From Phocaeicola plebeius DSM 17135 (GTDB lineage Bacteria > Bacteroidota > Bacteroidia > Bacteroidales > Bacteroidaceae), in contig NZ_DS990122.1 of the NCBI RefSeq assembly GCF_000187895.1, forward strand, positions 1-64,000: a DNA stretch of 64,000 bases. Direction: 5' to 3'. A program made the translations under genes and the position numbers. The notes under the pieces were generated by a model. The model ran no database searches and was not told the DNA's origin. It was given only the letters and a program-made list of their open reading frames with translations. Numbering within the stretch: position 1 is the stretch's first letter; each line of letters starts with the position of its first letter. Below, piece by piece: positions 1-46,452 of the stretch.

Positions 1-733
<733 letters not shown>

Positions 734-1717: not shown

Positions 1718-1806
1718 ATATTAATATGACATTATAAAGCATTATAAAAATCCGCTATTATACATCATAAATTAATTTTTTCAGATTCCTTCTCCCCGTA
1801 GCTTTG
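1718..1806 (+). promoter_or_regulatory. Shared phosphonate-operon control region, copy 1
   Basis: Three blocks match the control region of the second transporter gene (minus strand, 11038-11127). Block 1 is at 1718-1739, containing ATATTAATATGACATTATA, 21 of 22 identical. Block 2 is at 1755-1787, 31 of 33 identical. Block 3 is TAGCTTTGCC at 1799-1808, whose TAGCTTTG is a -7 box. Spacers between blocks have nearly the same length but unrelated sequence, so the blocks look selected. The -33 position carries only a T-run, consistent with activator dependence. Confidence 0.8.
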
Positions 1807-1835
1807 CCATCGAATTTAATGAATCTCACTAAAAA

Positions 1836-3203
1836 ATGGAGCAAAGAAGCAAACATAAAAAATTATCGGATATTGCATTTGTCTTATGGGCCGGAACAAC
1901 TGCCCTTTTATCTTATTCACTAGTATACGCACTTCGTAAACCATTTACCGCAGCAGAATTTGAAGGTCTGCAAATAATGGGAATGGATTATAAGATAGCA
2001 GTAAGTATCGTACAACTAATAGGCTATGTATTTGCCAAGCTTTTAGGAATCAAATACATTTCAGAATTAAAGCCAGAAGGGAGATTAAAGTTCATTATCG
2101 GATCGGCTGCACTTTCTGAAATTTCCTTATTAGCTTTTGGATTACTGCCAATTCCTTTCAATATTGTTGCCTTATTTTTCAACGGACTTTCATTAGGATG
2201 TATGTGGGGCGTGATTTTCAGCTTTTTAGAAGGAAGACGCACCACCGATTTTCTAGCCAGCATCATGGGAGTCAGCATGGCACTTAGTTCGGGAGTTGCC
2301 AAATCGCTCGGACTATACGCCCTGAATTCACTCCATGTCAGTGAGTTTTGGATGCCTGCACTCATCGGCGCCCTCGCATTCCCTCTATTATGCTTCACCG
2401 GATGGATGATGACCAAATTTCCGGCACCAACGGCAGAAGACATCGCTTCACGCTCCGTACGTGTCACCCTTAACGGTCAGCAACGATGGGAACTGTTCCG
2501 CAAATTCATGCCGCTGCTCATACTGCTATTCGGAGCCAACCTGCTTTTAACCGTGCAGCGCGACATCAAAGAAGATTTCATTGTCTGTATCATCGATGTG
2601 AGCACCGTATCCTCATGGGCATTCGCACAAATTGACAGCATCGCTACTTTCGTCATGTTGGCAGCCTTTGCCTTGCTTGCCACAACGTATAACCACCTGC
2701 GGGTGCTGTGCATACTGCTGATACTTTCCATCATGGGAATGGGTACACTTGCCTTCTTAGGAGCCAACTTCCACGAAGTAGCCTTGCCCACCACCATCTG
2801 GCTTTTCCTGCAAAGTCTCTGCCTGGACATTGCCTACCTGAGTTTCCAGACCATATTCTTTGAACGCTTCATCGCGTGCTTTAAAATCAAAGGTAATGTG
2901 GGCTTCTTCATCATCACCATCGACTTCATTGGCTACATGGGTACACTTGCTCTCCTGTTCTTCAAGGAATTCTATGCCTCACATATCCACTGGGCAGATT
3001 TCTACAACCAGATGAGCGTCTATATAGGCACCGCTTGCTGTATTGCCTTTGTCGGCTCGTTTATCTACATCCTTGTAGAAAAGAACCGGAAACGCAATAC
3101 CCCGCAAACTCCTTCCAGCCACCATAAAGCGCTGGAAACCTCCAACCTCGAAAATCAAGAAATAACCAATACGAAAATTTGTTTAACAACTACTGCAATA
3201 TGA
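1836..3203 (+). CDS. DUF5690-type MFS-like transporter, paralog 1
   Basis: A 455-residue polytopic inner-membrane protein with about 12 hydrophobic segments. It resembles the DUF5690 family, which looks like major facilitator permeases of sugar-phosphate or organophosphate type. Conserved stretches shared with the paralog at 9696-11006 are SLVYALRKP (about residue 28), GLSLGCMWGVIFSF (about 117), RDIKEDF and FIACFKIKGNVGFFI (C-terminal half). It is the first gene of an operon with phnX and phnW, and its stop overlaps the phnX start (ATGA at 3200-3203). Context makes 2-aminoethylphosphonate or a related compound the likely cargo; that is inference. The shared control region lies immediately upstream. 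The last ~50 residues are polar and probably cytoplasmic. Confidence 0.85.
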   Translation: MEQRSKHKKLSDIAFVLWAGTTALLSYSLVYALRKPFTAAEFEGLQIMGMDYKIAVSIVQLIGYVFAKLLGIKYISELKPEGRLKFIIGSAALSEISLLAFGLLPIPFNIVALFFNGLSLGCMWGVIFSFLEGRRTTDFLASIMGVSMALSSGVAKSLGLYALNSLHVSEFWMPALIGALAFPLLCFTGWMMTKFPAPTAEDIASRSVRVTLNGQQRWELFRKFMPLLILLFGANLLLTVQRDIKEDFIVCIIDVSTVSSWAFAQIDSIATFVMLAAFALLATTYNHLRVLCILLILSIMGMGTLAFLGANFHEVALPTTIWLFLQSLCLDIAYLSFQTIFFERFIACFKIKGNVGFFIITIDFIGYMGTLALLFFKEFYASHIHWADFYNQMSVYIGTACCIAFVGSFIYILVEKNRKRNTPQTPSSHHKALETSNLENQEITNTKICLTTTAI

Positions 3204-3994
3204 AAAAGATTGAATGTGTAATTATGGACTGGGCAGGAACTGCCGTCGACTATGGATGTTTTGCACCTGTATCTGCTTTCATTGAAAGCTTCCGTGCAAT
3301 AGGTATTGAAATCACAGCAGAAGAAGCACGCCGCCCAATGGGACTGACCAAGATTGATCACGTACGCGCGCTCTTTCAGATGACACGCATCGGAGAAAAA
3401 TTCCAGGAAAAGTATGGCCGTCCGTACAACGAGAATGACGTACAGGGACGATACGCTGAATTCCAGCGGTTGCTTTTTGCCACGCTGAAAGAATACACCG
3501 GACCTATCTCTTATGTTATTGAAACTATTGACACACTTCGCCAGAAAGGAATCAAGATTGGCTCCACCACAGGCTACACCAAAGAAATGATGGATGTGGT
3601 CATTCCCGAAGCTGCTGCCAAAGGCTATAGCCCGGACAACTGCGTAACTTCCGACGGACTTCCAGCAGGACGCCCATATCCTTACATGATTTACAAGAAC
3701 ATGTGCGACCTTGCCGTGCCTTCACGTTTTTCGGTACTGAAATACGGAGATACCATTTCCGACATCAAGGAAGGACTCAACGCCGGAGTATGGACAGTGG
3801 GCGTAATTTTAGGAAGTAACGAAATGGGACTTACCGAAGAAGAAGTACAGGCACTTCCGGAAAAAGAACTGAAAAGCCGCATGAGTGAAGTAAGAAACCG
3901 CATGTATGCAGCCGGTGCTCACTATGTAGTGGACAGCATCAAAGAACTTCCCGCCCTGATTGAATGTATCAACGCCCGTATGGCAAACGAATAA
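3200..3994 (+). CDS. phnX: Phosphonoacetaldehyde hydrolase (phosphonatase)
   Basis: A HAD-superfamily enzyme of 264 residues that cleaves the C-P bond of phosphonoacetaldehyde to acetaldehyde and phosphate. The N-terminal MDWAGTAVDYG carries the nucleophilic Asp in the phosphonatase-typical DWAGT context. MGLTKIDHVRAL (about residue 50) carries the Schiff-base Lys of the cap domain. GSTTGYT (about 118) and KYGDTISDIKEGLNAG (about 180) are HAD motifs II and IV. I chose the start at 3200 because it overlaps the upstream stop by ATGA and gives the usual MKKIE-type N-terminus; an upstream in-frame ATG at 3179 would extend into the transporter gene. It is cytosolic and acts directly after PhnW. 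Confidence 0.96.
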   Translation: MKKIECVIMDWAGTAVDYGCFAPVSAFIESFRAIGIEITAEEARRPMGLTKIDHVRALFQMTRIGEKFQEKYGRPYNENDVQGRYAEFQRLLFATLKEYTGPISYVIETIDTLRQKGIKIGSTTGYTKEMMDVVIPEAAAKGYSPDNCVTSDGLPAGRPYPYMIYKNMCDLAVPSRFSVLKYGDTISDIKEGLNAGVWTVGVILGSNEMGLTEEEVQALPEKELKSRMSEVRNRMYAAGAHYVVDSIKELPALIECINARMANE

Positions 3995-4027
3995 ATTTAT
4001 CACGTAAACATAAAAAAACAACAAGAT

Positions 4028-5119
4028 ATGAGACCTTATTTATTACTGACTCCCGGCCCTCTGACCACAAGTGAAACCGTAAAACAAGCCATGATGAGTG
4101 ACTGGTGCACATGGGATGAAGATTACAACGTAGGAATAGTAGAAGTTATCCGCAAAGAACTGGTAGAACTGGCCTGCAGCCGTCCTGAAGAATATACCGC
4201 CGTTCTGATGCAAGGAAGCGGAAGTTTCTGCGTAGAAGCTACACTTGGCTCAGTGATACGTCCTGAGGATCATCTGCTGGTAGCAGCCAACGGAGCCTAC
4301 GGAAAACGTATGGGAGTCATTGCCGAATATTATCACCTGAACTGCCATGTAATGAAGTTTGAAGAAACTCAGGCAGTCGATCCGGCACAGATTGAAGCTT
4401 ATCTGCAGGCACATCCGGAGGTAACCCACGTGTCAGTGGTACATTGCGAAACTACCACCGGCGTACTGAATCCCATCGAAGAAATTGCCCGCATCGTAAA
4501 AAAACATCATAAGGTACTGATTGTAGACGCAATGAGCAGTTTCGGCGGAGTACCCATCGACATGGCTGCATTAGGAATTGACTTCATGATCAGCAGCGCC
4601 AACAAATGTATCCAGGGAGTACCAGGATTCGGATTTATCATTGCCCGTCGCTCCTTACTTGAGCAGTGCAAAGGCGTAGCACGTTCCTTGTCTCTCGACT
4701 TATACGACCAATGGGAAACCATGGAGAAAGGACATGGCAAATGGCGTTTTACCTCACCTACGCATGTGGTACGCGCTTTCATGCAAGCCATGAACGAACT
4801 GAAAGAAGAAGGAGGAGTTGCCGCACGTCATGCCCGTTACAGCGAAAATCACCGCGTGCTGGTAGAAGGAATGAGAAGCTTAGGATTCAAGACTCTGCTT
4901 CCCGATGAAGAACAGTCGCCCGTTATTACTTCCTTCTATTATCCGAATGCGGAATTCAACTTCAAAGACTTCTATACCAAGCTGAAAGCAAAAGGATTTG
5001 TGATTTATCCGGGTAAAATCTCACAAGCGGATACCTTCCGTATCGGTAACATTGGAGATGTACACCCCGATGATTTCCGCCAGCTGATTGAAGCAATCAA
5101 AGAAATACAATTGCAGTAA
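4028..5119 (+). CDS. phnW: 2-aminoethylphosphonate:pyruvate transaminase
   Basis: A 363-residue class-V PLP aminotransferase. It converts 2-aminoethylphosphonate plus pyruvate into phosphonoacetaldehyde and alanine, the substrate step for PhnX. The N-terminus [12 protein letters not shown] is diagnostic. [11 protein letters not shown] (about residue 62) is the phosphate-cup region, VDAMSSFGG (about 166) carries the Asp that contacts the pyridine nitrogen, and [15 protein letters not shown] (about 188) carries the PLP lysine. Length is normal for the family. It follows phnX after 33 bp and ends just before a strong terminator, so transporter-phnX-phnW is a complete short operon. Confidence 0.97.
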
Positions 5120-5156
5120 TTGTGTATAATGAGCAACGTATTGTTGCTGTCTTTAT

Positions 5157-5200
5157 CCCTGTATTCTTCCCTTTCCGAAGCGGAAAATACAGGGATTTTT
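5157..5200 (+). terminator. Rho-independent terminator of the phnXW operon
   Basis: The stem CCCTGTATT/AATACAGGG (5157-5194) encloses a second helix TTTCCG/CGGAAA and is followed by ATTTTTATT. It closes the plus-strand operon. Confidence 0.8.
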
Positions 5201-5246
5201 ATTGTCTTTCCTCTTTAAAATCAGTACTAAAAATACCCTATAAAAA

Positions 5247-5282
5247 ATGCCTTTGTGTTTTGGTTGGAACACAAAGGCATTT
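5247..5282 (-). terminator. Terminator of the minus-strand transporter/oxidoreductase/etf/porin operon
   Basis: The stem AATGCCTTTGTGTT/AACACAAAGGCATT is followed on the minus strand by a T-run (5241-5247). It lies 18 bp after the porin stop codon, so the two convergent operons are separated by back-to-back terminators. Confidence 0.8.
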
Positions 5283-5299
5283 ACAAACAAACGAATTAA

Positions 5300-6430
5300 T
5301 TAGAAAATATATTGAAGACGAGCCTGAGCCAAGAAAAAGTTTTTCTGGTAGAATGCATTGCAATGCGAGCCAACCCACACATAACTACCGTTTATCTTGA
5401 CCCCAATATACTGGTTCAAATAAAAATTTACTCCCAATGACAAATCCTTTTCTTCTCCCCCATAAATTTCAGCCCGATCATCGTTCATATCCGTATAATT
5501 GAAACGGGCTACCAACTCTATGGCCTTGGCAGTAGACGGACGCCCAGGAACACCATACTTCGCATCGTATTCAAAGCCCCTTCCCTTCAACAGAAAACCA
5601 CCCTGTATATATCCTCCATGCGGACGGTAAGCCTTCTCGCCTGAAGTGCGATTCATACGGTCGAAAAAATACTCCGCTTGCACCATAAAGCGAGGAGCCA
5701 GATACAAGGCTTCCACTAGTCCTTTCACCTCCGTACCCATATCGGGGAAAGAAGCTTCCAGCAGCGGTTCCGAGAATAATGAAGTCACCCCGTCACTACT
5801 TACGCTACCTTCAGGAGAAGCAGAAGTATTTACTTCCTTAGTGCGGAAAGAGAAAGCTCCTCCCACATGCCACAGTCTCTCCTGTTGTGAATCCGAGCAA
5901 CGCCATACCGCACGAGAAGTAGACACAAATGCATTTTTCTGTGTATCCCCTAATTTATTGATGTCATTATGTGTATAAACTCCCATACAAAACAAATAAT
6001 GAGGTGCATGATAATAATAGGTAGCCCCCAGTTTCCGGCTGTTGGTATAAGCCAGAACGGAGGCTGCGGACTGATTAAAACGTAAATCGGCTGTACTGAT
6101 GAGCATATCCATTGAAAACGGCTCGTACCCGTTACCGAAGGAGACGGTGTGATTTCCCCAGTGATAGTTCAGCAGCAAATCCTTTATTGCTACTTTTCCA
6201 CCCCCTAATCCCACATCCGCTTTTACCTCGTATTGACCGTAAGTGGCTTTGAAACCCACCCGGAAATCTTCCACCCGATAATATCCTTGCGTACTTTCTT
6301 TTCCATAACCGGAAACAGAAGTATCCAGCAATGCCCGGGAGCGGAACTTCACTTTCAATGTTTCCTGAGCCGTCACATTCATCCCGACACAAAGGCACAG
6401 AGCCAGACAGGCAGAAACCGTCTTTTTCAT
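5300..6430 (-). CDS. Outer-membrane porin, OprO/OprP (phosphate-selective porin) type
   Basis: A 376-residue secreted beta-barrel. A Sec signal peptide (MKKTVSACLALCLCVGMNVTAQ) is followed by alternating amphipathic strands and a C-terminal aromatic residue (YIF) typical of Omp85-inserted barrels. The motif NHTVSFGNGYEPFSMDMLISTADLRF (within residues about 90-120, read in pieces) resembles the conserved region of OprP/OprO family porins. Its ATG overlaps the etfA stop by 4 bp, so it is translationally coupled and last in the minus-strand operon. Probable role: passage of the anionic phosphonate through the outer membrane; specificity is inferred from context only. Confidence 0.8.
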   Translation of the reverse strand: MKKTVSACLALCLCVGMNVTAQETLKVKFRSRALLDTSVSGYGKESTQGYYRVEDFRVGFKATYGQYEVKADVGLGGGKVAIKDLLLNYHWGNHTVSFGNGYEPFSMDMLISTADLRFNQSAASVLAYTNSRKLGATYYYHAPHYLFCMGVYTHNDINKLGDTQKNAFVSTSRAVWRCSDSQQERLWHVGGAFSFRTKEVNTSASPEGSVSSDGVTSLFSEPLLEASFPDMGTEVKGLVEALYLAPRFMVQAEYFFDRMNRTSGEKAYRPHGGYIQGGFLLKGRGFEYDAKYGVPGRPSTAKAIELVARFNYTDMNDDRAEIYGGEEKDLSLGVNFYLNQYIGVKINGSYVWVGSHCNAFYQKNFFLAQARLQYIF

Positions 6431-7626
6431 TTATCACCCTGCATTAATTGCACAATAGCCTCCTCCGCAGACATAACCCAGCCGTAATCTGCCACATTAA
6501 AAATAGGTGCTGCCGCATCCGGATTAATGGCGATAATCTTCTTGGCTCCGGTAATGCCCGCCGTATGCTGAATCTGCCCGCTGATACCTATGGCAATGTA
6601 TACATCCGGCAAAACGGTATGGCCAGTCTGGCCTATCTGCATTTTAGCATCAATCAATCCGGCTTCTACGGCCGCACGAGAACCGGCCACGACCGCTCCT
6701 ATGCGTTCCGCCCATTGGCGTATCTGCGCCACGGTTTCATGCTTCTTTACTCCTCGTCCTATTCCCACAATCACCTTGCTGTCACTCAGAGATTCTCCTC
6801 CGATGGTTTCTTCCATCTCACTCAGCAAACGTACACGTCCGTCGGGCACAAATGACGACAAGTCGTGTGCTATGACTTCAGCCTTTTTAGCGCAATCCGG
6901 TTGTAACGCTTTCATGATACCCGGACGCACCGATGCCATCTGCGGACGGTGGTTGGGAGTGGTAATGGTCGCCATCAGATTTCCACCAAAGGCCGGACGT
7001 ATCTGGTGCAGTAACAATGTATCCGCATCAATATCCAGTTGCGTACAATCGGCCGTCAACCCCGTTTGCAACAAGGCCGCCAGACGGGCAGAAAGTCCAC
7101 GTCCTTTGGGAGTAGCTCCTACCAACAAGATTTCCGGCTGTAACTCTCGGACAAGCTGTGCCACGACCTCTGCATAATTTTCTTCTACAAATGCTTCCAG
7201 CTTTTCCGATTCCAGTAAATGAATCCTGCAAGCTCCATAACGTTCCAATTCCGGAACGAAACGCTGCAGTTTATTTCCTGCCAGCACTACCTCCGGCATC
7301 TGGCCCAACTTTTCACCTAATTCAGTTGCCTTTCCCAACAATTCACGGGTGACCGGTGCCAGTTCATCTCCTTCCGTTTCGGCCAGAACCCATATTCCTT
7401 TTGCAGAGACAGCAGGCTGAGCTACTGGACTGACCGCTTCCTGCATGTCCCAAGCCTCAGCCGGACAAGCCTGCACACATGTGCCGCACAAACGACAGCT
7501 GTATGGATCGACTTCAGGGTATTCATTAAATTGTATGGCGCCGAACGGACAGCTATCCGCACAAATACCACACTGCGTACATGCATCTCTTCGCAACTGA
7601 AGAGCAAACGTATCTTTGATTGCCAT
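6427..7626 (-). CDS. etfA: Electron transfer flavoprotein alpha subunit with N-terminal 2[4Fe-4S] ferredoxin domain
   Basis: A 399-residue protein. Residues about 15-60 form a bacterial-type diferredoxin: CTQCGICADSCP and, after about 23 residues, CRLCGTCVQACP. An EtfA N-terminal domain follows (about 75-260), then the FAD-binding C-terminal domain (about 275-395) with VGIGRGVKK, GSRAAVEAG, IGQTGHTVLPDVYIAIGISG and AGITGAKKIIAIN. The ferredoxin fusion is known from anaerobic ETFs and adds extra redox centres for transfer to or from other proteins. It pairs with EtfB (4-bp gap) and should accept electrons from the adjacent FAD oxidoreductase. No ETF:quinone oxidoreductase gene is in the operon, so the final acceptor is unknown. 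Confidence 0.93.
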   Translation of the reverse strand: MAIKDTFALQLRRDACTQCGICADSCPFGAIQFNEYPEVDPYSCRLCGTCVQACPAEAWDMQEAVSPVAQPAVSAKGIWVLAETEGDELAPVTRELLGKATELGEKLGQMPEVVLAGNKLQRFVPELERYGACRIHLLESEKLEAFVEENYAEVVAQLVRELQPEILLVGATPKGRGLSARLAALLQTGLTADCTQLDIDADTLLLHQIRPAFGGNLMATITTPNHRPQMASVRPGIMKALQPDCAKKAEVIAHDLSSFVPDGRVRLLSEMEETIGGESLSDSKVIVGIGRGVKKHETVAQIRQWAERIGAVVAGSRAAVEAGLIDAKMQIGQTGHTVLPDVYIAIGISGQIQHTAGITGAKKIIAINPDAAAPIFNVADYGWVMSAEEAIVQLMQGDK

Positions 7627-7630
7627 AATT

Positions 7631-8413
7631 TTATTTCTTCTGAGAGTGAATATTCTGATAGATTACCTGCATGACTGCTGCTCCATCGACCAGCCATTGC
7701 AACGACTTTTTATTTTGAGGAACCTCCGTAGACACCACCTTGGTGGGAGAAGCATGCAAACCGACACTTCCAGCATCCAAGTTCAGGTCTTTCTCATTCC
7801 AACATGTTATCACTTTTTTCTGGGCCTCTCTCCATCCCGCCAGCGTAGGAGGAGCCACTTCTCCGTTTTCCTTACTTACCATCACGGCACAAGGGAAAGC
7901 AATTTCCATTTGCTGACATACGTTGCCCGCTCTTTTGGCAAGCCAGATGGAAGACGGAGTGATACCCTCTATGCGTATCAGTTGTGTAACCTGAGGAATC
8001 CCCAGCTGTCCGGCCACTTCCGGTCCTACTTGTGCCGTATCTCCATCAATAGCCATACGACCGAAAAACAGCAAATCGAACGTTCCTATTTTTTGAACGG
8101 CTGCAGCCAATACTTTACTGGTACACCAGGTATCACTTCCTGCAAAAGCCGGCGATGAAAGTAAGACAGCACGGTCGGCTCCATGCTGCAAAGCTTCGCG
8201 TAACACGGTCTCCGCAGAACCGGGTCCCATACTTACCGCTACCACTTCGGCCTGAGTTTCTTTTTTCAGATTCAATGCAGCCTGCAATGCACACAAATCA
8301 TCCGGATTTGTCTGGCAAAGAGCTGAAGAACGTTTTAATGTATTCGTCACCGGGTCTATCTCCACCCGCGTAGACTGAGGTACTTGCTTCAAAAAAACTA
8401 TATATCGTTTCAT
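7631..8413 (-). CDS. etfB: Electron transfer flavoprotein beta subunit
   Basis: A 260-residue EtfB. The N-terminal motif IVFLKQVPQSTRVEIDP, the central VVAVSMGPGSAETVLREAL (about residue 60) and ADRAVLLSSPAFAGSDTWCTSKVLA (about 85-110, in pieces) are typical of EtfB. FGRMAIDGDTAQVGPEVAGQLGIPQ (about 125-150) is the AMP/FAD-binding signature region. It forms the heterodimer with the following etfA. It starts 55 bp after the oxidoreductase stop, in the same minus-strand operon. Confidence 0.95.
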   Translation of the reverse strand: MKRYIVFLKQVPQSTRVEIDPVTNTLKRSSALCQTNPDDLCALQAALNLKKETQAEVVAVSMGPGSAETVLREALQHGADRAVLLSSPAFAGSDTWCTSKVLAAAVQKIGTFDLLFFGRMAIDGDTAQVGPEVAGQLGIPQVTQLIRIEGITPSSIWLAKRAGNVCQQMEIAFPCAVMVSKENGEVAPPTLAGWREAQKKVITCWNEKDLNLDAGSVGLHASPTKVVSTEVPQNKKSLQWLVDGAAVMQVIYQNIHSQKK

Positions 8414-8467
8414 TTCTATGCGATTAAATCATATTTATAAATTGACGAGGAATACACACACCCTGTC

Positions 8468-9694
8468 TTATCCTCCTTTTTTATTGGAACGTGCGTCGGC
8501 ACAGCGCTGCTGGAATTCAGCAGAAAAAGGATCGACCTCTCCAAAGCGTTCTGGAGAGAACAATTCCGGATTCACAAACGGCGTTTCTCCTAAAATCAGT
8601 TCGGCAGCCAGACGGCCCATGCCACCTCCGGCAGCGACTCCACCTCCGCAGCATCCGGTCACCGTATGCAATCCTTTGTAACGTGCTACCGGACCAATAA
8701 TGAATTTTGCATCCGGCACATAGCAGGAAGGTCCAGACATATAGTGTGCAATCGGGAGGTCGTCAATATCTTTCAAATACTTTTTCAACAGCGGGGCACA
8801 TTCATCCAGCACAGTCCACTTTGCCGCCTTATTAAAATCGAAATCCTCCAGCTTTTCAGTCAATGTAGAAGGGTCAAAAGCCTGGCACTGGCTTTCGCGC
8901 AGACCGATAATCAAGGCCCCCACATCGGAACGGGTAAAGGCACGTGCATCCGGAATGACCGTAAACGGATGATTGGCAGGGAAGCGTGTAGCATCAATGG
9001 AAGTAATCCAGAAATGGCTTCTTACAGGAGTAAACGGTAAACCGACTTTCAACGGACGCATTAGCAAATTAGCCCATGAACCAGCTGCATTTACTACCAC
9101 CGGAGCCGTTACCGTTTCTCCGGTTGCCAGTCTGACACCTTTCACCTCAGCATCTTCCACCAGAATTTCCTTTACCTTACAATTTGAACGTAAAGTTACT
9201 CCCAGCTTACGGGCAGCTTTGGCATAACCCGAACAAAGAAGTGCTGAATCAATGAACGCATCCGTCGGCATATAAAGTGCCACATCTACCGCTTCCTCCT
9301 CAATCCAAGGAAGTAATTCCTTTACCCGTTCCTTTCCAATCCGTTCATTGGGTATTCCAAAACGGCAGGCCGCTTCTTCCAACGCCTCCAAGCCTTTCAA
9401 AGAAGCTTCTGATGAAGCAATTGTAATACTTCCGCACATCTGGAGTTCCAGCGACTCATCTAAAAGAGATTCTATCTCCTCGATACAATCGTATGTTTCC
9501 TGTACCAGCTCCATCAATGCCGGTTTAGTACGAGCACGCGTCAGGAGACAAGCCGCACGGGCCGATGCCTGAGAGGCAATTTCATTTCCGTCCAGCAACA
9601 GGATATTCCCTGCATGACGTTTCGCCAGCTGATATGCGGTAGCACATCCCAGCAGTCCGCCTCCTATAATAATAATGTCATAATCTTGTTTCAT
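8468..9694 (-). CDS. FAD-dependent amine oxidoreductase, DAO family (sarcosine/glycine oxidase-like)
   Basis: A 408-residue flavoprotein of the D-amino-acid-oxidase fold. The N-terminal dinucleotide motif IIIGGGLLGCATAYQLAK ends in the ribose-binding acidic residue of LLLDG. VVNAAGSWAN (about residue 213) and a C-terminal GCCGGGVAAGGGMGRLAAELI (about 350) contact FAD; the CCGGG is unusually cysteine- and glycine-rich. Relatives oxidise secondary or N-methyl amines, and dehydrogenase members pass electrons to ETF. That fits the adjacent etfBA genes and an anaerobic host. It starts 1 bp from the stop of the transporter gene. The phosphonate context suggests an N-alkylated aminoethylphosphonate or other amino-phosphonate as substrate. 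No direct sequence evidence fixes the substrate. Confidence 0.85.
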   Translation of the reverse strand: MKQDYDIIIIGGGLLGCATAYQLAKRHAGNILLLDGNEIASQASARAACLLTRARTKPALMELVQETYDCIEEIESLLDESLELQMCGSITIASSEASLKGLEALEEAACRFGIPNERIGKERVKELLPWIEEEAVDVALYMPTDAFIDSALLCSGYAKAARKLGVTLRSNCKVKEILVEDAEVKGVRLATGETVTAPVVVNAAGSWANLLMRPLKVGLPFTPVRSHFWITSIDATRFPANHPFTVIPDARAFTRSDVGALIIGLRESQCQAFDPSTLTEKLEDFDFNKAAKWTVLDECAPLLKKYLKDIDDLPIAHYMSGPSCYVPDAKFIIGPVARYKGLHTVTGCCGGGVAAGGGMGRLAAELILGETPFVNPELFSPERFGEVDPFSAEFQQRCADARSNKKGG

Positions 9695-9695
9695 C

Positions 9696-11006
9696 TTAAA
9701 TCGTATTATATTGAGGGTTTATATAAAAATCTGTATTCTTGAGTTTCAAGCCTTGCATATACTTCCGGTGAATCAGGATGCTGGCCACAATAAACAGAAT
9801 CGAACAAGTGGCTCCTACAAAACCGGCTATATGGTTGAACAAGGCAAACCATTCCAACTCGATGTTCAGGAATTCCTTGGTAGAAAGTAAGGTTACCGTA
9901 CCCAGATACCCGATAAAATCAATTAGTGCAATAAAGAATCCCACATTTCCCTTAATGCGAAAACAAGCAATAAAACGGTCGAAGAAAATGGTCTGGAAAG
10001 TCAGATAAGCTATGTAAAGCGACAAACTTTGGATAAACAGCCAGGTGACCGGTTTCAAGTCCAGCGTTTCATAATGGAAAGACACGTATGTCATGGTCAG
10101 ACATCCGGCTATTACCAGCGTCATCAGCCACAACAGCGCTCTGATATTACTACGGAAAAATGCAAACAAGGCAAATATTCCCAAAATAATCAATGTGACA
10201 ATGGTATCAATGCGGGCAAACAACCAGGAAGACTGATTGCTCATATCCAAAATGTTCACCAGGAAATCTTCTTTAATATCACGTAAGACCAGCAACATGA
10301 AGTTACCGATGAAAAGCAGCGTAAGAATCGGAGCATATTTCCGGAACAAAGCCACACGTCCTTTTCCATCAAGCACTACCCGCTCGTTACGCAACGCAAT
10401 ATCTTCTGCCGTAGGCTGGGGCAAACGTTTCAGCATATATCCCATAAAGACCAGCAAAGGCAAGGCAAAACCTCCGATTACTGCCGGCATCCAGAATTGG
10501 TCTATCTGCATTTCATTCATGGCAAACAAGCCAAAGCTTTTTGCAACTCCCGAGCTGAACACCATGCTCACCCCGAGTAGACTGGCCAAGATGTCCGTCA
10601 CCTTCCGTCCTTCGATAAAACTGAAAATCACTCCCCACATACAACCTAATGAAAGTCCGTTGACAAACATGGCAGCCACATTATAAGGTGCTTCCAAAAG
10701 CCCGAAGCCTACCAAAGCCAGTTCTGCCAAAATCGCAGAACCAACGAAGAACCGAAAGCGATTTTCCTTCTTCAGTTCCGATATAATTTTTATTCCAAAG
10801 AACTTGGCAATGACATATCCTAAAATCTGGATAGTAGTCACCGCTACCTTATAGTCACTTCCCATAAAAGTCAGCCCCTCGAACGAAGCAGCCGTGTACG
10901 GTTTACGTAACGCATACACCAGGGAATAAGAGAGCAATGCCGCACCACCGGCCCAAAGTATCAGCAGTGCATCAGATAAATGTTTTTGATTGGTTGTCTG
11001 TTTCAT
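9696..11006 (-). CDS. DUF5690-type MFS-like transporter, paralog 2
   Basis: A 436-residue polytopic membrane protein, clearly paralogous to the 1836-3203 product. Shared segments include SLVYALRKPYTAASFEGL, GLSLGCMWGVIFSFIEGR, LRDIKEDFLVNILDMS and FDRFIACFRIKGNVGFFI (all spread over the full length). It is the first gene of the minus-strand operon, directly ahead of the FAD oxidoreductase. Keeping one permease with phnXW and another with the oxidoreductase suggests two related but distinct substrates. Its control region carries the same blocks as paralog 1. It lacks the polar C-terminal tail of paralog 1. Confidence 0.87.
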   Translation of the reverse strand: MKQTTNQKHLSDALLILWAGGAALLSYSLVYALRKPYTAASFEGLTFMGSDYKVAVTTIQILGYVIAKFFGIKIISELKKENRFRFFVGSAILAELALVGFGLLEAPYNVAAMFVNGLSLGCMWGVIFSFIEGRKVTDILASLLGVSMVFSSGVAKSFGLFAMNEMQIDQFWMPAVIGGFALPLLVFMGYMLKRLPQPTAEDIALRNERVVLDGKGRVALFRKYAPILTLLFIGNFMLLVLRDIKEDFLVNILDMSNQSSWLFARIDTIVTLIILGIFALFAFFRSNIRALLWLMTLVIAGCLTMTYVSFHYETLDLKPVTWLFIQSLSLYIAYLTFQTIFFDRFIACFRIKGNVGFFIALIDFIGYLGTVTLLSTKEFLNIELEWFALFNHIAGFVGATCSILFIVASILIHRKYMQGLKLKNTDFYINPQYNTI

Positions 11007-11037
11007 ATTCGTATCACATTCGTTTCATTTTCTGCGG

Positions 11038-11127
11038 CAAAGCTATCACAGACCAAAATCTGAAAGAATTAATTTATCATGTATAATAGAGGGGCTGTTT
11101 GAGGGCTGTATAATGTCATATTAATAT
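11038..11127 (-). promoter_or_regulatory. Shared phosphonate-operon control region, copy 2
   Basis: Minus-strand counterpart of 1718-1806: block 1 at 11106-11127, block 2 at 11057-11089, and the -7 box TAGCTTTG at 11038-11045. Distances from block 1 to the start codon are about 97-100 bp in both copies. The intervening spacers (about 15-16 and 11 bp) keep their length but not their sequence. The region also lies upstream of the divergent regulator gene, so one bound protein could act in both directions. Confidence 0.8.
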
Positions 11128-11133
11128 GATGAT

Positions 11134-11190
11134 TATGACATATTTTTGTAAAGAATGACATACCGTTGTAACAACTATGACGTATCTTTG
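11134..11190 (+). promoter_or_regulatory. Regulator promoter region with ATGAC-TA direct repeats
   Basis: Three copies of ATGAC(A/G)TA occur at about 20-bp spacing (starting near 11136, 11155 and 11177), the last adjoining a -7 box TATCTTTG (11183-11190). The related string ATGACATTA is in the shared block 1. These could be autoregulatory sites; no consensus -33 box is evident at 19-21 bp. Confidence 0.4.
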
Positions 11191-11208
11191 CTGCAAACCT
11201 CATCATCT

Positions 11209-12099
11209 ATGAACAGACTGGTATTACTTTATGAAAGAATGAAAAAGCTCCGGGAATCGGGCGTCAGAATGAAAGACATTTCAGAAGAAACTGATATTGC
11301 TTCAAGTGTATTGTCCTCGCTGTATTCTTCTGTCCTTCCTATGTATGTAAACCTGCTTTCCGGAGGAGATGACCCCGAAACGGCACTGGACAAGGCTTTG
11401 CAACAAGTCAATAATGTTTCCAAACGTAAATTGTTAGGATGCCTGGATGAACTGTATGAAAAAGTCTGCCACATCGAACCGCGTCTTGTTTCTTCCAAGA
11501 ACAGCGGACGTCCTTTCCTGGATGACATCGAACGGGAAGCCATCAAGTACCTGCCCAATGCCGGAGTCTATACAGGATTGTACCTGGCCTATAGTTCCTC
11601 TTCTTTCTCAGACGGCCTGAAAGTAGAGCCTTACATGATTACTTCCATCACCGACGGTGAAACCCTGCCTAAAGTTTACAGCCAGAGTATGTCGGGCGAT
11701 TATTATGCCGGCATCGGACTGTTTTCGCCATTTCAAATAGGATACCTGATGTTCAATGAACAGAAACGCCTGCAACTGGCGCTGAAGGTTATCTATCTGC
11801 AACTGCCTATCATCGAATATCCCAACCTGGTAAAGGGCATTTACCTGACTCACGACTACAACCGGAATCCGATAGCACGCCGCATTCTGTTTGTCAGACA
11901 AGGAGATGAAATTCCTCTGGAAGAATTTGCCAACCTGCGCACCAAAGTCATTCCCAGAGAAAAGCTGACTCCGGAAGAAGCTGACTACTATGACTATACC
12001 TGTCACACTGGAGACGTAATCAAAAGCATGATGCTGGTCTCCCCCGATAAAAACATAGAGGACCTGAAACGGGAAAAAAGAATTCTGGAGCTTCTTTGA
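11209..12099 (+). CDS. Putative HTH-type transcriptional regulator of the phosphonate genes
   Basis: A 296-residue soluble protein that I do not recognise as a named family. The N-terminal ~40 residues (YERMKKLRESGVRMKDISEE, then TDIASSVLSSLYSSVLP) look like a helix-turn-helix. The remaining ~240 residues, with KLLGCLDELYEKV, a GLYLAYSSSS segment and a YPNLVKGIYLTHDYNRNPIARRIL segment (in pieces), look like a ligand-sensing domain. I start it at 11209 because a -7 box (11183-11190) lies downstream of the in-frame ATG at 11155. It is divergent from the second transporter operon and is the only regulator candidate in the island. The function is inferred from position and the HTH-like start. Confidence 0.6.
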   Translation: MNRLVLLYERMKKLRESGVRMKDISEETDIASSVLSSLYSSVLPMYVNLLSGGDDPETALDKALQQVNNVSKRKLLGCLDELYEKVCHIEPRLVSSKNSGRPFLDDIEREAIKYLPNAGVYTGLYLAYSSSSFSDGLKVEPYMITSITDGETLPKVYSQSMSGDYYAGIGLFSPFQIGYLMFNEQKRLQLALKVIYLQLPIIEYPNLVKGIYLTHDYNRNPIARRILFVRQGDEIPLEEFANLRTKVIPREKLTPEEADYYDYTCHTGDVIKSMMLVSPDKNIEDLKREKRILELL

Positions 12100-12147
12100 T
12101 ATTCAGAAAAATCCGCTAACTTAGCCCCTCTTAAAAATGATTTACCT

Positions 12148-12678
12148 ATGGCACTTATCAAATCAGTAAGAGGGTTTACTCCTCAAATCGGTGAGAATTG
12201 TTATCTGGCCGACAATGCCACCATCATCGGCGATGTAATAATGGGAAAGGATTGCAGTGTTTGGTTCAATGCAGTTCTCCGCGGAGATGTAAACTCTATC
12301 CGTATCGGCGACCGTGTGAACATTCAGGACGGTACCGTGCTTCATACGTTATATGAGAAATCAACCGTAGAAATAGGCAATGATGTATCCATCGGCCACA
12401 ACGTGACACTTCACGGAGCTTGTGTGCACGACAATGCCCTGATTGGAATGGGGTCTACCCTGCTCGACCATGCCGTAGTAGGTGAAGGAGCCATCGTAGC
12501 TGCCGGCGCACTGGTACTTGCCAATACCGTCATTGAACCGCACACGCTTTGGGGCGGCGTACCTGCCAAGTTTATCAAGAAAGTTGACCCTGCACAGAGC
12601 AAGGAACTGAATCAGAAAATTGCCAACGGATATCTGATGTATGCTTCCTGGTTCAAAGAGGAAGAAACCGAGAAATAA
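12148..12678 (+). CDS. Gamma-carbonic anhydrase-family hexapeptide-repeat protein
   Basis: A 176-residue left-handed parallel beta-helix protein with isoleucine/valine-rich hexapeptide repeats over residues about 15-150. NAVLRGD (about residue 34), NIQDGTVLH (about 54) and SIGHNVTLHG (about 78) supply the Arg, Gln and Asp and the three histidines that bind metal in gamma-carbonic anhydrases. CO2 hydration is therefore possible, though many bacterial members (YrdA, PaaY) have untested roles. The protein is cytosolic and likely a trimer. It follows the regulator gene by 48 bp and ends at a bidirectional terminator. Confidence 0.85.
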   Translation: MALIKSVRGFTPQIGENCYLADNATIIGDVIMGKDCSVWFNAVLRGDVNSIRIGDRVNIQDGTVLHTLYEKSTVEIGNDVSIGHNVTLHGACVHDNALIGMGSTLLDHAVVGEGAIVAAGALVLANTVIEPHTLWGGVPAKFIKKVDPAQSKELNQKIANGYLMYASWFKEEETEK

Positions 12679-12680
12679 AA

Positions 12681-12734
12681 AACAGCCTCGCAAGGTTTAC
12701 GGCATTCGATTCCGTAAGTATTGCGAGGCTGTTC
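12681..12734. terminator. Bidirectional terminator
   Basis: The stem AACAGCCTCGCAA/TTGCGAGGCTGTT has a poly-A run on the left and a T-run on the right. It separates the convergent carbonic-anhydrase-like and threonine-aldolase genes. Confidence 0.85.
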
Positions 12735-12754
12735 CTTTTTATCTTTACCTAAGA

Positions 12755-13789
12755 TTACTTGTTTTTCAACTCTTCCAGCAATTCAGCCACATCTTCTTCA
12801 CGTGTAGCCCAACTGGTCGCGATACGTACCACTGTCGTACCGTCAGCACGTTTTTCCCATACCTCAAAGCCTATACGCTGTGCCAGTTTCTCGTACAAGC
12901 TATTTTCAAGCTTTACAAACAACTGATTGCTCTGCGGACGAATGTAAAATGTATAACCGTTTGCTTTCAATCCTTCCACAATCCGGTCAGCCATATCAAT
13001 GGCATGACGGGCAATTTTCAGGTACAAGCCATCTGTAAACAAGGTATCAAACTGCAAACCTAACAGACGCCCCTTGGCCAACAACACGCCCCGTTGCTTG
13101 ATAATCGTATCAAACTGACGAATCAGTCCGGGCTGCGGAATTACGACCGCCTCGCCAAACAAGGCTCCGACCTTGGTTCCGCCAATATAGAAAATATCAC
13201 ACAAAGAAGCGATATCTTTCAAAGTCACATCCGTATCCCGTGCCGCCAGTCCGTAACCCAGACGAGCCCCGTCGAGGAACAACGGAATCTTATGCTTACG
13301 GCACACGGCAGACAAAGCCTTCAGTTCATCCAGCGTGTAAAGTGTACCGTATTCCGTAGGATGCGATATATATACCATTCCCGGAGCCACCATGTGATCC
13401 CAGCTCGGGTCCTGGTAGAAAGCCGTCACATAACGGTCTACTTCTTCCGCATCCAACTTTCCTTCATGGTGAGGCAAAGCCAGCACTTTATGTCCTCCTG
13501 CTTCCACCGCCCCGGCTTCATGCTGGTTGATATGACCCGTTTCTGCTGCAATCACTCCCTCATACGGACGAAGCAAGGCCGTAATGACCGTGGAATTGGT
13601 CTGTGTACCTCCCACCATAAAATGTACTTCTGCCTGCGGGCATCCGCAAGCTTCTGCAATTTTCCGGCGAGCCGATGCACAATACTCATCCGTGCCATAG
13701 CCCGAAGTTTTCTCCATGTTCGTCTGGCACAAGCGCTCCAAAATCAGCGGATGCGCTCCTTCCATGTAATCACTTTTAAAATATTGCAT
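12755..13789 (-). CDS. Low-specificity L-threonine aldolase / beta-eliminating lyase family
   Basis: A 344-residue fold-type I PLP enzyme; family members cleave L-threonine or L-allo-threonine to glycine and acetaldehyde. The motifs are YGTDEYCASARRKIAEACGC (about residues 36-55), FMVGGTQTNS (about 63), HEAGAVEAGGHKV (about 90), FLDGARLGYGLA (about 171, PLP-nitrogen Asp) and YIGGTKVGALFGEA (about 201, PLP Lys). Length is normal. It sits between the terminator and a response regulator gene (19 bp apart) in the same orientation, with no evident functional link to it. Acetaldehyde is also the PhnX product, but the two are on separate transcripts. Confidence 0.87.
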   Translation of the reverse strand: MQYFKSDYMEGAHPLILERLCQTNMEKTSGYGTDEYCASARRKIAEACGCPQAEVHFMVGGTQTNSTVITALLRPYEGVIAAETGHINQHEAGAVEAGGHKVLALPHHEGKLDAEEVDRYVTAFYQDPSWDHMVAPGMVYISHPTEYGTLYTLDELKALSAVCRKHKIPLFLDGARLGYGLAARDTDVTLKDIASLCDIFYIGGTKVGALFGEAVVIPQPGLIRQFDTIIKQRGVLLAKGRLLGLQFDTLFTDGLYLKIARHAIDMADRIVEGLKANGYTFYIRPQSNQLFVKLENSLYEKLAQRIGFEVWEKRADGTTVVRIATSWATREEDVAELLEELKNK

Positions 13790-45442: not shown

Positions 45443-46452
45443 CTCCTACCCTATCTATCATTATCCCAGTTTATAATAAAGAGCAATATATTGTACGATG
45501 TTTATCTTCTATTCTGGAACAATCGTACTCAGACTTTGAAATCATCGTCATTAATGATGGTTCCAAAGACTTCTCCGGTTCTCTTATAGAAGGTATAGCT
45601 CGTTATGAAAAAAGAATACATTATTATAAATTTGAGAATGCAGGAGTTTCTGTAGCAAGGAATAGAGGCATTGCATTGGCAAAGGGAACTTATATTATGT
45701 TTATAGATGCAGATGACTGGATAGATAAAGGGTATTTAAAAAATATCATGAATAAAGTAGAAAAATCATCTGCTGATTTATATATTTGGGGGATTACAAA
45801 AGATTTCGAAGACAGAACCCATAGGGTATGGCTACCTTATATGTGTGGATATTATTCAGTTATAGATTTCTTACGTAATTTTATTCAAGAACAATATGAA
45901 AGTCATCGTGGATTATACGGCTATATTTCCAACAAGCTATTGAAACGAGATATTGTAGAGAAATGGAATATCCGTTTTAAAGAAACATTAAAATTAATGG
46001 AAGACTACGATTTCTTTCTTACTTATTACGAGTATTGCAAAGATGTTATACTTTTTGATGAAATAGGTTATCACTATGTCGCAGGAACAGAATTTTCTTC
46101 AGGAAAACGTATCAAAAAAACAGACTTCATCTCTATCATAGATATTCATAGAAAGTGTCTGAACTTACTGAAAAATAAGAATGCACTAACAAGCCAAAAT
46201 GAGAATATGTTGTTGAGTGCCATCAAGAATATTGCATTTGCTGTTTTTTGGGAGATGACTCCTATATGTAGAAAAGAAATAAAAGAAGCATTAAAAAACC
46301 TATTATCTAGGCCAGAGGTATTAAAATCTTTCAACGAAACTAATTCCCAAAAAGAAAAGCTGCTAGCAAAAATGATTACTCAAAAAAATGAATGGGGATT
46401 ATTCTGGTTTACACATTGCTGGAGAATTTATTTAAAACTAAGAAGATTATGA
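45439..46452 (+). CDS. Family 2 glycosyltransferase (2)
   Basis: A 337-residue GT2 protein: SIIIPVYNKEQYIVRCLSSI, VINDGSKDFSG (about residue 36) and FIDADDWIDKGYL (about 91). The C-terminal half is not recognised and probably carries acceptor contacts. Its start and stop overlap the neighbouring genes by 4 bp each, indicating translational coupling. It probably acts next to the pyruvyltransferase it precedes. Confidence 0.9.
   Translation: MTPTLSIIIPVYNKEQYIVRCLSSILEQSYSDFEIIVINDGSKDFSGSLIEGIARYEKRIHYYKFENAGVSVARNRGIALAKGTYIMFIDADDWIDKGYLKNIMNKVEKSSADLYIWGITKDFEDRTHRVWLPYMCGYYSVIDFLRNFIQEQYESHRGLYGYISNKLLKRDIVEKWNIRFKETLKLMEDYDFFLTYYEYCKDVILFDEIGYHYVAGTEFSSGKRIKKTDFISIIDIHRKCLNLLKNKNALTSQNENMLLSAIKNIAFAVFWEMTPICRKEIKEALKNLLSRPEVLKSFNETNSQKEKLLAKMITQKNEWGLFWFTHCWRIYLKLRRL

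Follow-up and report, generated by a model that had tools for sequence, protein, structure and literature searches.

We analyzed a 64,000-nucleotide stretch of the genome of Phocaeicola plebeius DSM 17135 (contig NZ_DS990122.1, positions 1 to 64,000; the whole stretch is called the window), which carries a phosphonate island at positions 1718-12099. The island encodes PhnX and PhnW together with a flavoprotein of the DAO family and an electron-transfer flavoprotein (ETF). We consider, with a probability of about 65%, that the DAO protein is an anaerobic dehydrogenase of the PbfC type, which would convert N-methyl-2-aminoethylphosphonate (N-methyl-AEP) to phosphonoacetaldehyde (PAA) with the dedicated, probably confurcating ETF as the electron acceptor, and that the PAA would be passed to PhnX.

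A sequence-only reading of the island had proposed that the flavoprotein oxidizes an N-substituted aminophosphonate, that the ETF takes the electrons and that the products enter the PhnWX pathway. Kinship with PbfC, the presence of phnX and phnW in all 13 DAO-positive genomes of the family sampled, gene order and promoter sharing support this proposal at the level of sequence. Its last step should be modified: by analogy with PbfC, PAA would enter the pathway at PhnX and not at PhnW.

The island consists of two convergent operons, 1836-5119 (plus strand) and 5300-11006 (minus strand), and 180 bp separates phnW from the porin gene. The plus-strand operon has the order T1 (a DUF5690 transporter gene)-phnX-phnW, and the minus-strand operon the order T2 (a second DUF5690 gene)-DAO-etfB-etfA-porin. 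Thus, each operon is led by a DUF5690 gene, as had been proposed, and all of the genes named in the sequence-only reading were located. The ferredoxin, which had been listed as a separate gene, is instead the N-terminal domain of EtfA.

The DAO flavoprotein and its kinship with PbfC

The DAO gene (8468-9694, minus strand) encodes a protein of about 400 residues with the PF01266 fold (222 bits), which we propose to be an N-methyl-AEP dehydrogenase. The closest characterized relative found was PbfC of Azospirillum sp. B510, which has the same length and is 40% identical over 405 residues, end to end. Among the best 30 of 172 plasmid records, the Azospirillum sp. B510 DAO was the best match (183 bits, versus 109 for the next). 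Its gene order is phnW-phnX-DAO-pbfA, with pbfA above its cut-off, and a cluster of that make-up is described for PbfC of this strain in the available part of PMC10590968. The window DAO scored higher with PbfC (241 bits) than with proteins like dimethylglycine dehydrogenase (DMGDH; at most 159 bits).

In a sample of 296 genomes of the phylum, a DAO match at 1e-40 was obtained only in the genome of P. plebeius itself and in G485, a class-level relative within Bacteroidia. The DAO of G485 is 37% identical and lies inside a phnA-phnY-phnW-DAO-DUF5690 cluster (locus L045, 7210-15658). This cluster also holds a TIGR03276 HD oxygenase just under the cut-off, and no ETF match was found in its 19 kb stretch.

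Three trees were calculated. A tree of 19 rows included two partial and several very long rows, and four rows were dropped for a tree of 15 rows. For the tree of 18 rows, the proteins of locus L008 and SolA were also dropped and five plasmid DAO/DMGDH-like proteins were added. The trees took in 7 of the 20 cassette DAO proteins, and that of locus L010, which yielded no open reading frame, is in none of them. In the 18-row tree, the Bacteroidales DAOs, the G485 protein and PbfC formed a clade of nine (support 93/98), which stands apart from two phnX-linked TIGR03364 (PbfD-like) proteins and from the DMGDH-like proteins. Residues shared by all nine members of the clade, but by no more than one of the eight outgroup sequences, include R53, R225, S226, R266, H317, Y318 and S323; from this pattern, they are candidates for phosphonate binding.

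The AlphaFold model of DAO (predicted local distance difference test score, 81.6) had DAO-fold enzymes as its best 50 Foldseek matches (E 2e-30 to 2e-24). The closest solved structure was DMGDH in the sequence comparison and, in the fold comparison, an archaeal enzyme with the title L-proline dehydrogenase.

The window DAO meets no NCBIfam cut-off. Monomeric sarcosine oxidase (SoxA; 76 bits, cut-off 480), glycine oxidase ThiO (87 bits, cut-off 251) and N-methyltryptophan oxidase (SolA; 111 bits, cut-off 257) were rejected on their scores. TIGR03364, which from its gene context we infer to stand for PbfD, was also rejected (48.5 bits, cut-off 285.1), and the DAO lies outside the PbfD-like clade. 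The match to TIGR03329, a "putative aminophosphonate oxidoreductase" family which we guess stands for PbfB, was weak (33 bits, cut-off 633). SolA and monomeric sarcosine oxidase have an O2-activating lysine, which we considered as a marker. The PbfC clade has I or L at this position; however, the same holds for the PbfD-like rows, which are expected to be oxidases. Thus, this residue does not discriminate.

According to the part of PMC10590968 that was available, PbfC uses O2 very poorly and does not reduce NAD+ or NADP+. It prefers N-methyl-AEP about 400-fold over AEP, and the products of PbfC and PbfD are PAA and methylamine. The electron acceptor of PbfC was left open by its discoverers, who suggested a quinone or a carrier protein, and enzymes of this kind with flavin adenine dinucleotide (FAD) were reported predominantly from proteobacteria, with some from the PVC group. 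By likeness to PbfC, the window DAO would oxidize an AEP derivative unusable by PhnW, most likely N-methyl-AEP, directly to PAA and methylamine. The PAA so made would feed PhnX.

The phnX gene (3200-3994, plus strand) encodes PAA hydrolase (TIGR01422, 350 bits, equivalog cut-off 220), and phnW (4028-5119, plus strand) encodes AEP-pyruvate transaminase (TIGR02326, 592 bits, equivalog cut-off 401). In the established pathway, to which these equivalog-level matches point, PhnW would convert AEP to PAA and PhnX would release phosphate from PAA.

The ETF and the conservation of the DAO-ETF cassette

EtfB (7631-8413, minus strand) carries DGDTAQVGP, and this motif was present in all 20 EtfB proteins, that of the window included. 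In the available part of PMC9232219, DGDTAQVGP is named as the motif by which the bifurcating FAD is recognized, and non-bifurcating ETFs do not have it. The best solved matches of the ETF pair were CarE, LctC and CarD. For EtfB, the closest solved relatives were bifurcating ETFs (up to 167 bits), whereas canonical ETF chains reached at most 60 bits. Fd-EtfA (6427-7626, minus strand) is a 2[4Fe-4S] ferredoxin domain fused to an ETF alpha subunit; its closest solved chain is CarE (6fah_A), matched at 306 bits with the ferredoxin domain included. The window EtfA has two CxxCxxCxxxC motifs, as does EtfA at all 19 of the 19 loci, although the frame is split in L027 and L038. By sequence, the ETF belongs to the bifurcating/confurcating type and not to the mitochondrial type.

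The genome has one other EtfAB, which is without a ferredoxin domain and lies beside an acyl-CoA dehydrogenase-like gene. As for the ETF:quinone oxidoreductase (ETF-QO), no PF05187 match was found in the P. plebeius genome, while PF05187 was matched in 3 of 14 control genomes. An RnfB-type protein was found above the cut-off in the genome.

Gut Bacteroidales hosts are strictly anaerobic. Because oxygen would be absent, the FADH2 of DAO is expected to be re-oxidized by the dedicated EtfB/Fd-EtfA, as the conserved gene order and the co-occurrence suggest. Lactate oxidation with NAD+ is uphill (PMC9232219, available part). By analogy, amine oxidation with NAD+ is probably uphill as well; therefore, confurcation with reduced ferredoxin is the preferred reading. 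Since the ETF is of the CarDE or Ldh-EtfAB type, flavin-based confurcation is the likely route, in which the electrons of the amine and those of reduced ferredoxin would together reduce NAD+. The complete proposal, that DAO and EtfB/Fd-EtfA form an electron-confurcating aminophosphonate dehydrogenase which couples the conversion of N-methyl-AEP to PAA with ferredoxin oxidation and NAD+ reduction, is tentative, and we give it somewhat less than an even chance.

We obtained 20 loci of the cassette by scanning GTDB genomes. One of them (L039), a 65-residue fragment with 39% identity, was left out of the neighborhood counts, and 19 loci remained, some of which stop at contig ends. EtfB and Fd-EtfA were the next matches after the DAO gene in all 19 (gaps of 7 to 430 bases), the match preceding DAO was a DUF5690 gene in 16, and a porin was present in 13. 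In two Phocaeicola loci (L024 and L025), phnXW and the DAO cassette are tandem operons. In Millionella (L037) and in a Bacteroides metagenome-assembled genome (L038), there is a single run of transporter-phnX-phnW-DAO-etfB-etfA. The reading frames of the Millionella single-run operon are open.

Co-occurrence was analyzed in a fixed set of 298 genomes of one family; Millionella and G070 lie outside this set. DAO was present in 13 and phnX in 52 of these genomes, and all 13 DAO genomes were among the 52 (hypergeometric 4e-11 over the 298 genomes, kinship ignored). phnW was above the cut-off in 13 of 13 DAO-positive genomes. Within the genus, DAO was present in 6 and phnX in 20 of 38 genomes (hypergeometric 0.014, kinship again ignored). 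At E<=1e-100, Fd-EtfA was matched in the same 13 DAO genomes and in one more (G262). The additional match is an EtfA without the ferredoxin part in another neighborhood, with a gene that, judged by eye, looks like an acyl-CoA dehydrogenase. Thus, DAO and Fd-EtfA accompany each other in this sample, and every genome that has them also has phnX and phnW.

Transporters, promoters and the regulator candidate

T1 (1836-3203, plus strand) and T2 (9696-11006, minus strand) are DUF5690 membrane proteins, matched by PF18943 at 421 and 435 bits, respectively (cut-off 25). A simple hydropathy scan gave 12 hydrophobic segments for T1 and 11 for T2. No PDB sequence match was found for DUF5690. Within the family sample, DUF5690 was present in 54 of the 298 genomes, namely in all 52 genomes with phnX (some matches partial) and in 2 of the 246 without. 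Since DUF5690 tracks phnX, it is probably an aminophosphonate transporter within this family, and both T1 and T2 are proposed to have this role. A universal link between DUF5690 and phnX is countered by Caulobacter vibrioides, which has DUF5690, as phnX was matched in 0 of the 14 control genomes. The last gene of the DAO operon (5300-6430, minus strand) encodes an outer-membrane porin of the Porin_O_P family (PF07396, 68 bits). The porin and the two DUF5690 permeases would together bring aminophosphonates into the cell.

The two genomes with DUF5690 and without a standard phnX match were inspected. In G219, the order is pbfA-DUF5690-phnW (locus L088, 3292-8538), with PbfA matched by NF049939 at 661 bits. 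In G322, DUF5690 lies beside a gene 37% identical to the window porin. In a further genome, G308, a divergent DUF5690 copy lies with genes for phosphonopyruvate decarboxylase (TIGR03297) and AEP aminotransferase (TIGR03301) (locus L090, 4593-10151); another copy in G308 showed no match to the queried phosphonate genes in its 11.5 kb.

Several side observations were made on these loci. L088 also holds a divergent PhnX-like gene below the cut-offs, and perhaps represents a hydroxy-AEP route in a Bacteroidaceae genome. L090 is probably a cluster for AEP biosynthesis in a Bacteroidaceae genome and could supply AEP to the gut. A 44.7 kb circular record, which was deposited as a plasmid of Bacteroides finegoldii (L079, NZ_OY725933.1), carries DUF5690-phnX-phnW, and phnX is also present on records listed as plasmids of Phocaeicola massiliensis and Parabacteroides distasonis (hits H73 and H74). 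Plasmid-borne phnX suggests that phosphonate use may be mobile in gut Bacteroidales.

The promoters of T1 and T2 are identical at 108 of 158 aligned bases, in line with the common promoter architecture proposed previously. The promoter/operator-like region of the phnXW operon (1718-1777, plus strand) contains ATATTAATATGACATTATA at 1718-1736 and ATTATACATCATAAATTAATT at 1757-1777, followed by a TAnnTTTG box, and the region of the DAO-etf operon (11067-11127, minus strand) contains the same two elements. This box precedes the start codon by about 40 bp, and its spacing is almost equal in the two promoters. The 18-mer TATTAATATGACATTATA was exact at both promoters, with one further site in the window, at 46448, at 3 mismatches. 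The 21-mer ATTATACATNATAAATTAATT fits both promoters exactly, and the promoter copies differ at one position. In shuffles of the window, 0.16 (18-mer) and 0.01 (21-mer) matches at 3 mismatches or fewer were obtained on average. Exact copies of the 19-mer ATATTAATATGACATTATA were found only at these two promoters in the 4.42 Mb genome; at 3 mismatches, there were three further sites, no more than with a reversed-pattern control (5 sites).

As the window pair served to define the motifs, their exact fit there is by construction; this does not apply to the contrast between promoter classes in other genomes. For the counts in other genomes, L036, L049, L054 and L060 were left out, as no transporter gene was found beside the cassette. 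The 21-mer at 3 mismatches or fewer was found in 0 of 20 phnX-operon promoters versus 11 of 16 DAO-operon promoters.

The gene at 11155-12099 (plus strand), divergent from T2, encodes a one-component regulator candidate with a predicted helix-turn-helix-like helical N-terminus and a C-terminal 8-stranded beta-barrel. It had no Pfam or NCBIfam match and no PDB sequence match better than E 0.13. With its model, the best Foldseek E value was 0.017, and VIA-align matched it to de novo beta-barrels, avidins and Cap15 with Z values as high as 9.5 (residues ~133-250, with the helical N-terminus barely covered). Thus, the modeled barrel resembles avidin, calycin and Cap15 barrels. Because this barrel arrangement is common, no family is claimed.

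A paralogue of this regulator, 36-47% identical to the window protein, was found beside 18 of 19 phnX loci of other genomes, and one regulator type adjoins phnXW operons and another DAO operons. In the P. plebeius genome, the protein of 11155-12099 was the sole family member found, and none lies beside the window phnXW. As judged from these comparisons, the window phnXW operon carries the promoter type of the DAO operon and has no regulator gene of its own. It appears to have lost its regulator gene and gained the promoter type of the DAO operon, by which two usually separate regulons would have become one. The divergent regulator, with its barrel as a sensor domain, probably controls both operons via one shared operator. 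A 16S rRNA gene (1-732, minus strand), cut at the window edge, lies upstream of phnXW where other genomes have the regulator paralogue. We speculate that it may mark a rearrangement point.

Alternative explanations and comparison with known systems

Several points weigh against the assignment of the cassette as a PbfC-type route to PAA. The Azospirillum protein was equated with the published PbfC by strain and gene cluster. When this protein was used as the query, no further plasmid record was obtained at 1e-20, so that PbfC diversity is represented by a single protein in the trees. No PbfB sequence is among their rows. The 93/98 support of the clade with PbfC is below the starred level of the tree tool, and in the two noisier trees with long-branch rows, PbfC was unresolved (19 rows) or placed with 58/83 (15 rows). 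The other EtfAB of the genome also has DGDTAQVGP, so that the motif marks the ETF class and not confurcation with DAO. phnXW lay within the examined flanks of the cassette in only 4 of 19 loci, and 15 were without it. In one of the two single-run loci (L038), the frames of the transporter and of Fd-EtfA are broken (6757-8076 and 11995-13202), by decay or by sequence error. The co-occurrence sample represents one family only. Because 39 of its 52 phnX genomes are without both DAO and Fd-EtfA, the cassette is an accessory to PhnWX. The promoter contrast was weak with the 18-mer, which was found at 3 mismatches or fewer in 4 of 16 DAO-type versus 1 of 20 phnX-type promoters. The sequence-only reading had regarded homologs mostly away from phosphonate genes as evidence against it. 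The flanks of the loci do show this pattern, yet phnX and phnW were present somewhere in 13 of 13 genomes.

The alternatives concern the substrate and the electron route. DAO might act on an unrelated secondary amine, such as sarcosine, dimethylglycine or a proline-like compound, and lie near phnXW by chance or under shared phosphate-starvation control. The closest solved structures, which are DMGDH and an L-proline dehydrogenase, and the 15 loci without phnXW in the flanks are consistent with this. However, phnX and phnW were present in 13 of 13 DAO genomes, DUF5690 genes stand in both operons, and two loci have the single-run gene order. Furthermore, the kinship is closer to PbfC than to DMGDH-like proteins, by score and by tree. 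We consider this explanation very improbable. Mere chance neighborhood of the two operons was ruled out by the co-occurrence and the shared operator-like sequence. A different aminophosphonate is less far-fetched: DAO may act on plain AEP or on a hydroxylated or otherwise N-alkylated AEP rather than mainly on N-methyl-AEP, given that 40% identity does not fix the specificity and that a second transporter, encoded in the DAO operon, suggests a substrate that is related yet different. On the other hand, all 13 DAO genomes have PhnW, which would make AEP oxidation redundant, and PbfC discriminates about 400-fold against AEP (PMC10590968, available part). We regard such a substrate as rather unlikely.

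If the substrate and pathway are as proposed, the ETF may still work without ferredoxin or NAD coupling, as a simple carrier from DAO to an acyl-CoA dehydrogenase or to an unrecognised quinone reductase. Fusobacterium nucleatum has an ETF that connects lactate dehydrogenase directly with butyryl-CoA dehydrogenase (PMC12630350, in the part available), and the second EtfAB of the P. plebeius genome lies beside an acyl-CoA dehydrogenase-like gene. However, the same part of that source describes the Fusobacterium ETF as without the glycine kept in bifurcating ETFs, whereas all 20 EtfB proteins of the cassette have the DGD motif. The ferredoxin motifs are conserved throughout the 19 loci, the genome has no ETF-QO match, and no acyl-CoA dehydrogenase gene is in the gene run of the window. 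A simple-carrier ETF is therefore doubtful in our judgment, and the PbfC-type dehydrogenase with a probably confurcating ETF is the reading that we retain.

Among the titles and abstract openings listed by searches of the open-access PMC literature, no ETF-coupled phosphonate oxidation was found, nor is it described in the available parts of PMC4046663 and PMC5748707. The name DUF5690 was not found in the open-access PMC literature; aminophosphonate transport is the function predicted here for this Pfam family (PF18943). The gut cassette suggests a testable answer to the open question of the PbfC acceptor, which is probably encoded next door. If the proposal is true, the physiological electron acceptor of a PbfC enzyme would be identified, and strict anaerobes could harvest phosphorus from N-methylated phosphonates. 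The cassette points to these compounds as a phosphorus source in animal guts. If the ETF confurcates, the partners of bifurcating ETFs would include DAO-fold amine oxidation besides lactate and acyl-CoA dehydrogenases. In addition, the island appears to exemplify an operon whose promoter is of the type found at another, functionally linked operon.

The island can be compared with several known systems. As in the hydrolytic PhnWX pathway for AEP, phnX and phnW of the window meet the equivalog cut-offs; however, transport here would depend on DUF5690 and an O/P-type porin, whereas ABC transporters are annotated in the Acinetobacter, Vibrio and Sinorhizobium clusters that were inspected. The FAD oxidoreductases of the PbfD/TIGR03364 type are also of the DAO family and phnX-linked, but the window DAO is under their cut-off and outside their clade. 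Sarcosine and dimethylglycine dehydrogenases resemble the proposed system in that a DAO-family amine dehydrogenase hands electrons to an ETF, in their case the mitochondrial one (PMC10590968 and PMC12630350, available parts). In contrast, the window ETF is of the bifurcating class, the genome has no ETF-QO match, and the window DAO stops at the point at which DMGDH would continue into its C-terminal part. The Ldh-EtfAB of Acetobacterium woodii and CarCDE share with the cassette the EtfB motif DGDTAQVGP, the N-terminal ferredoxin domain of EtfA and a flavin dehydrogenase alongside (PMC9232219, available part), whereas in the window the partner is, instead of a lactate or acyl-CoA dehydrogenase, a DAO-fold amine dehydrogenase. 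PbfC of Azospirillum sp. B510 is like the window DAO in family, length and linkage to phnW and phnX, and R53, R225-S226, R266 and H317-Y318 are common to their clade. The two differ in the strictly anaerobic hosts of the cassette and in that no ETF match was found in the 19 kb Azospirillum stretch, whereas the window has a dedicated EtfB/Fd-EtfA downstream of DAO.

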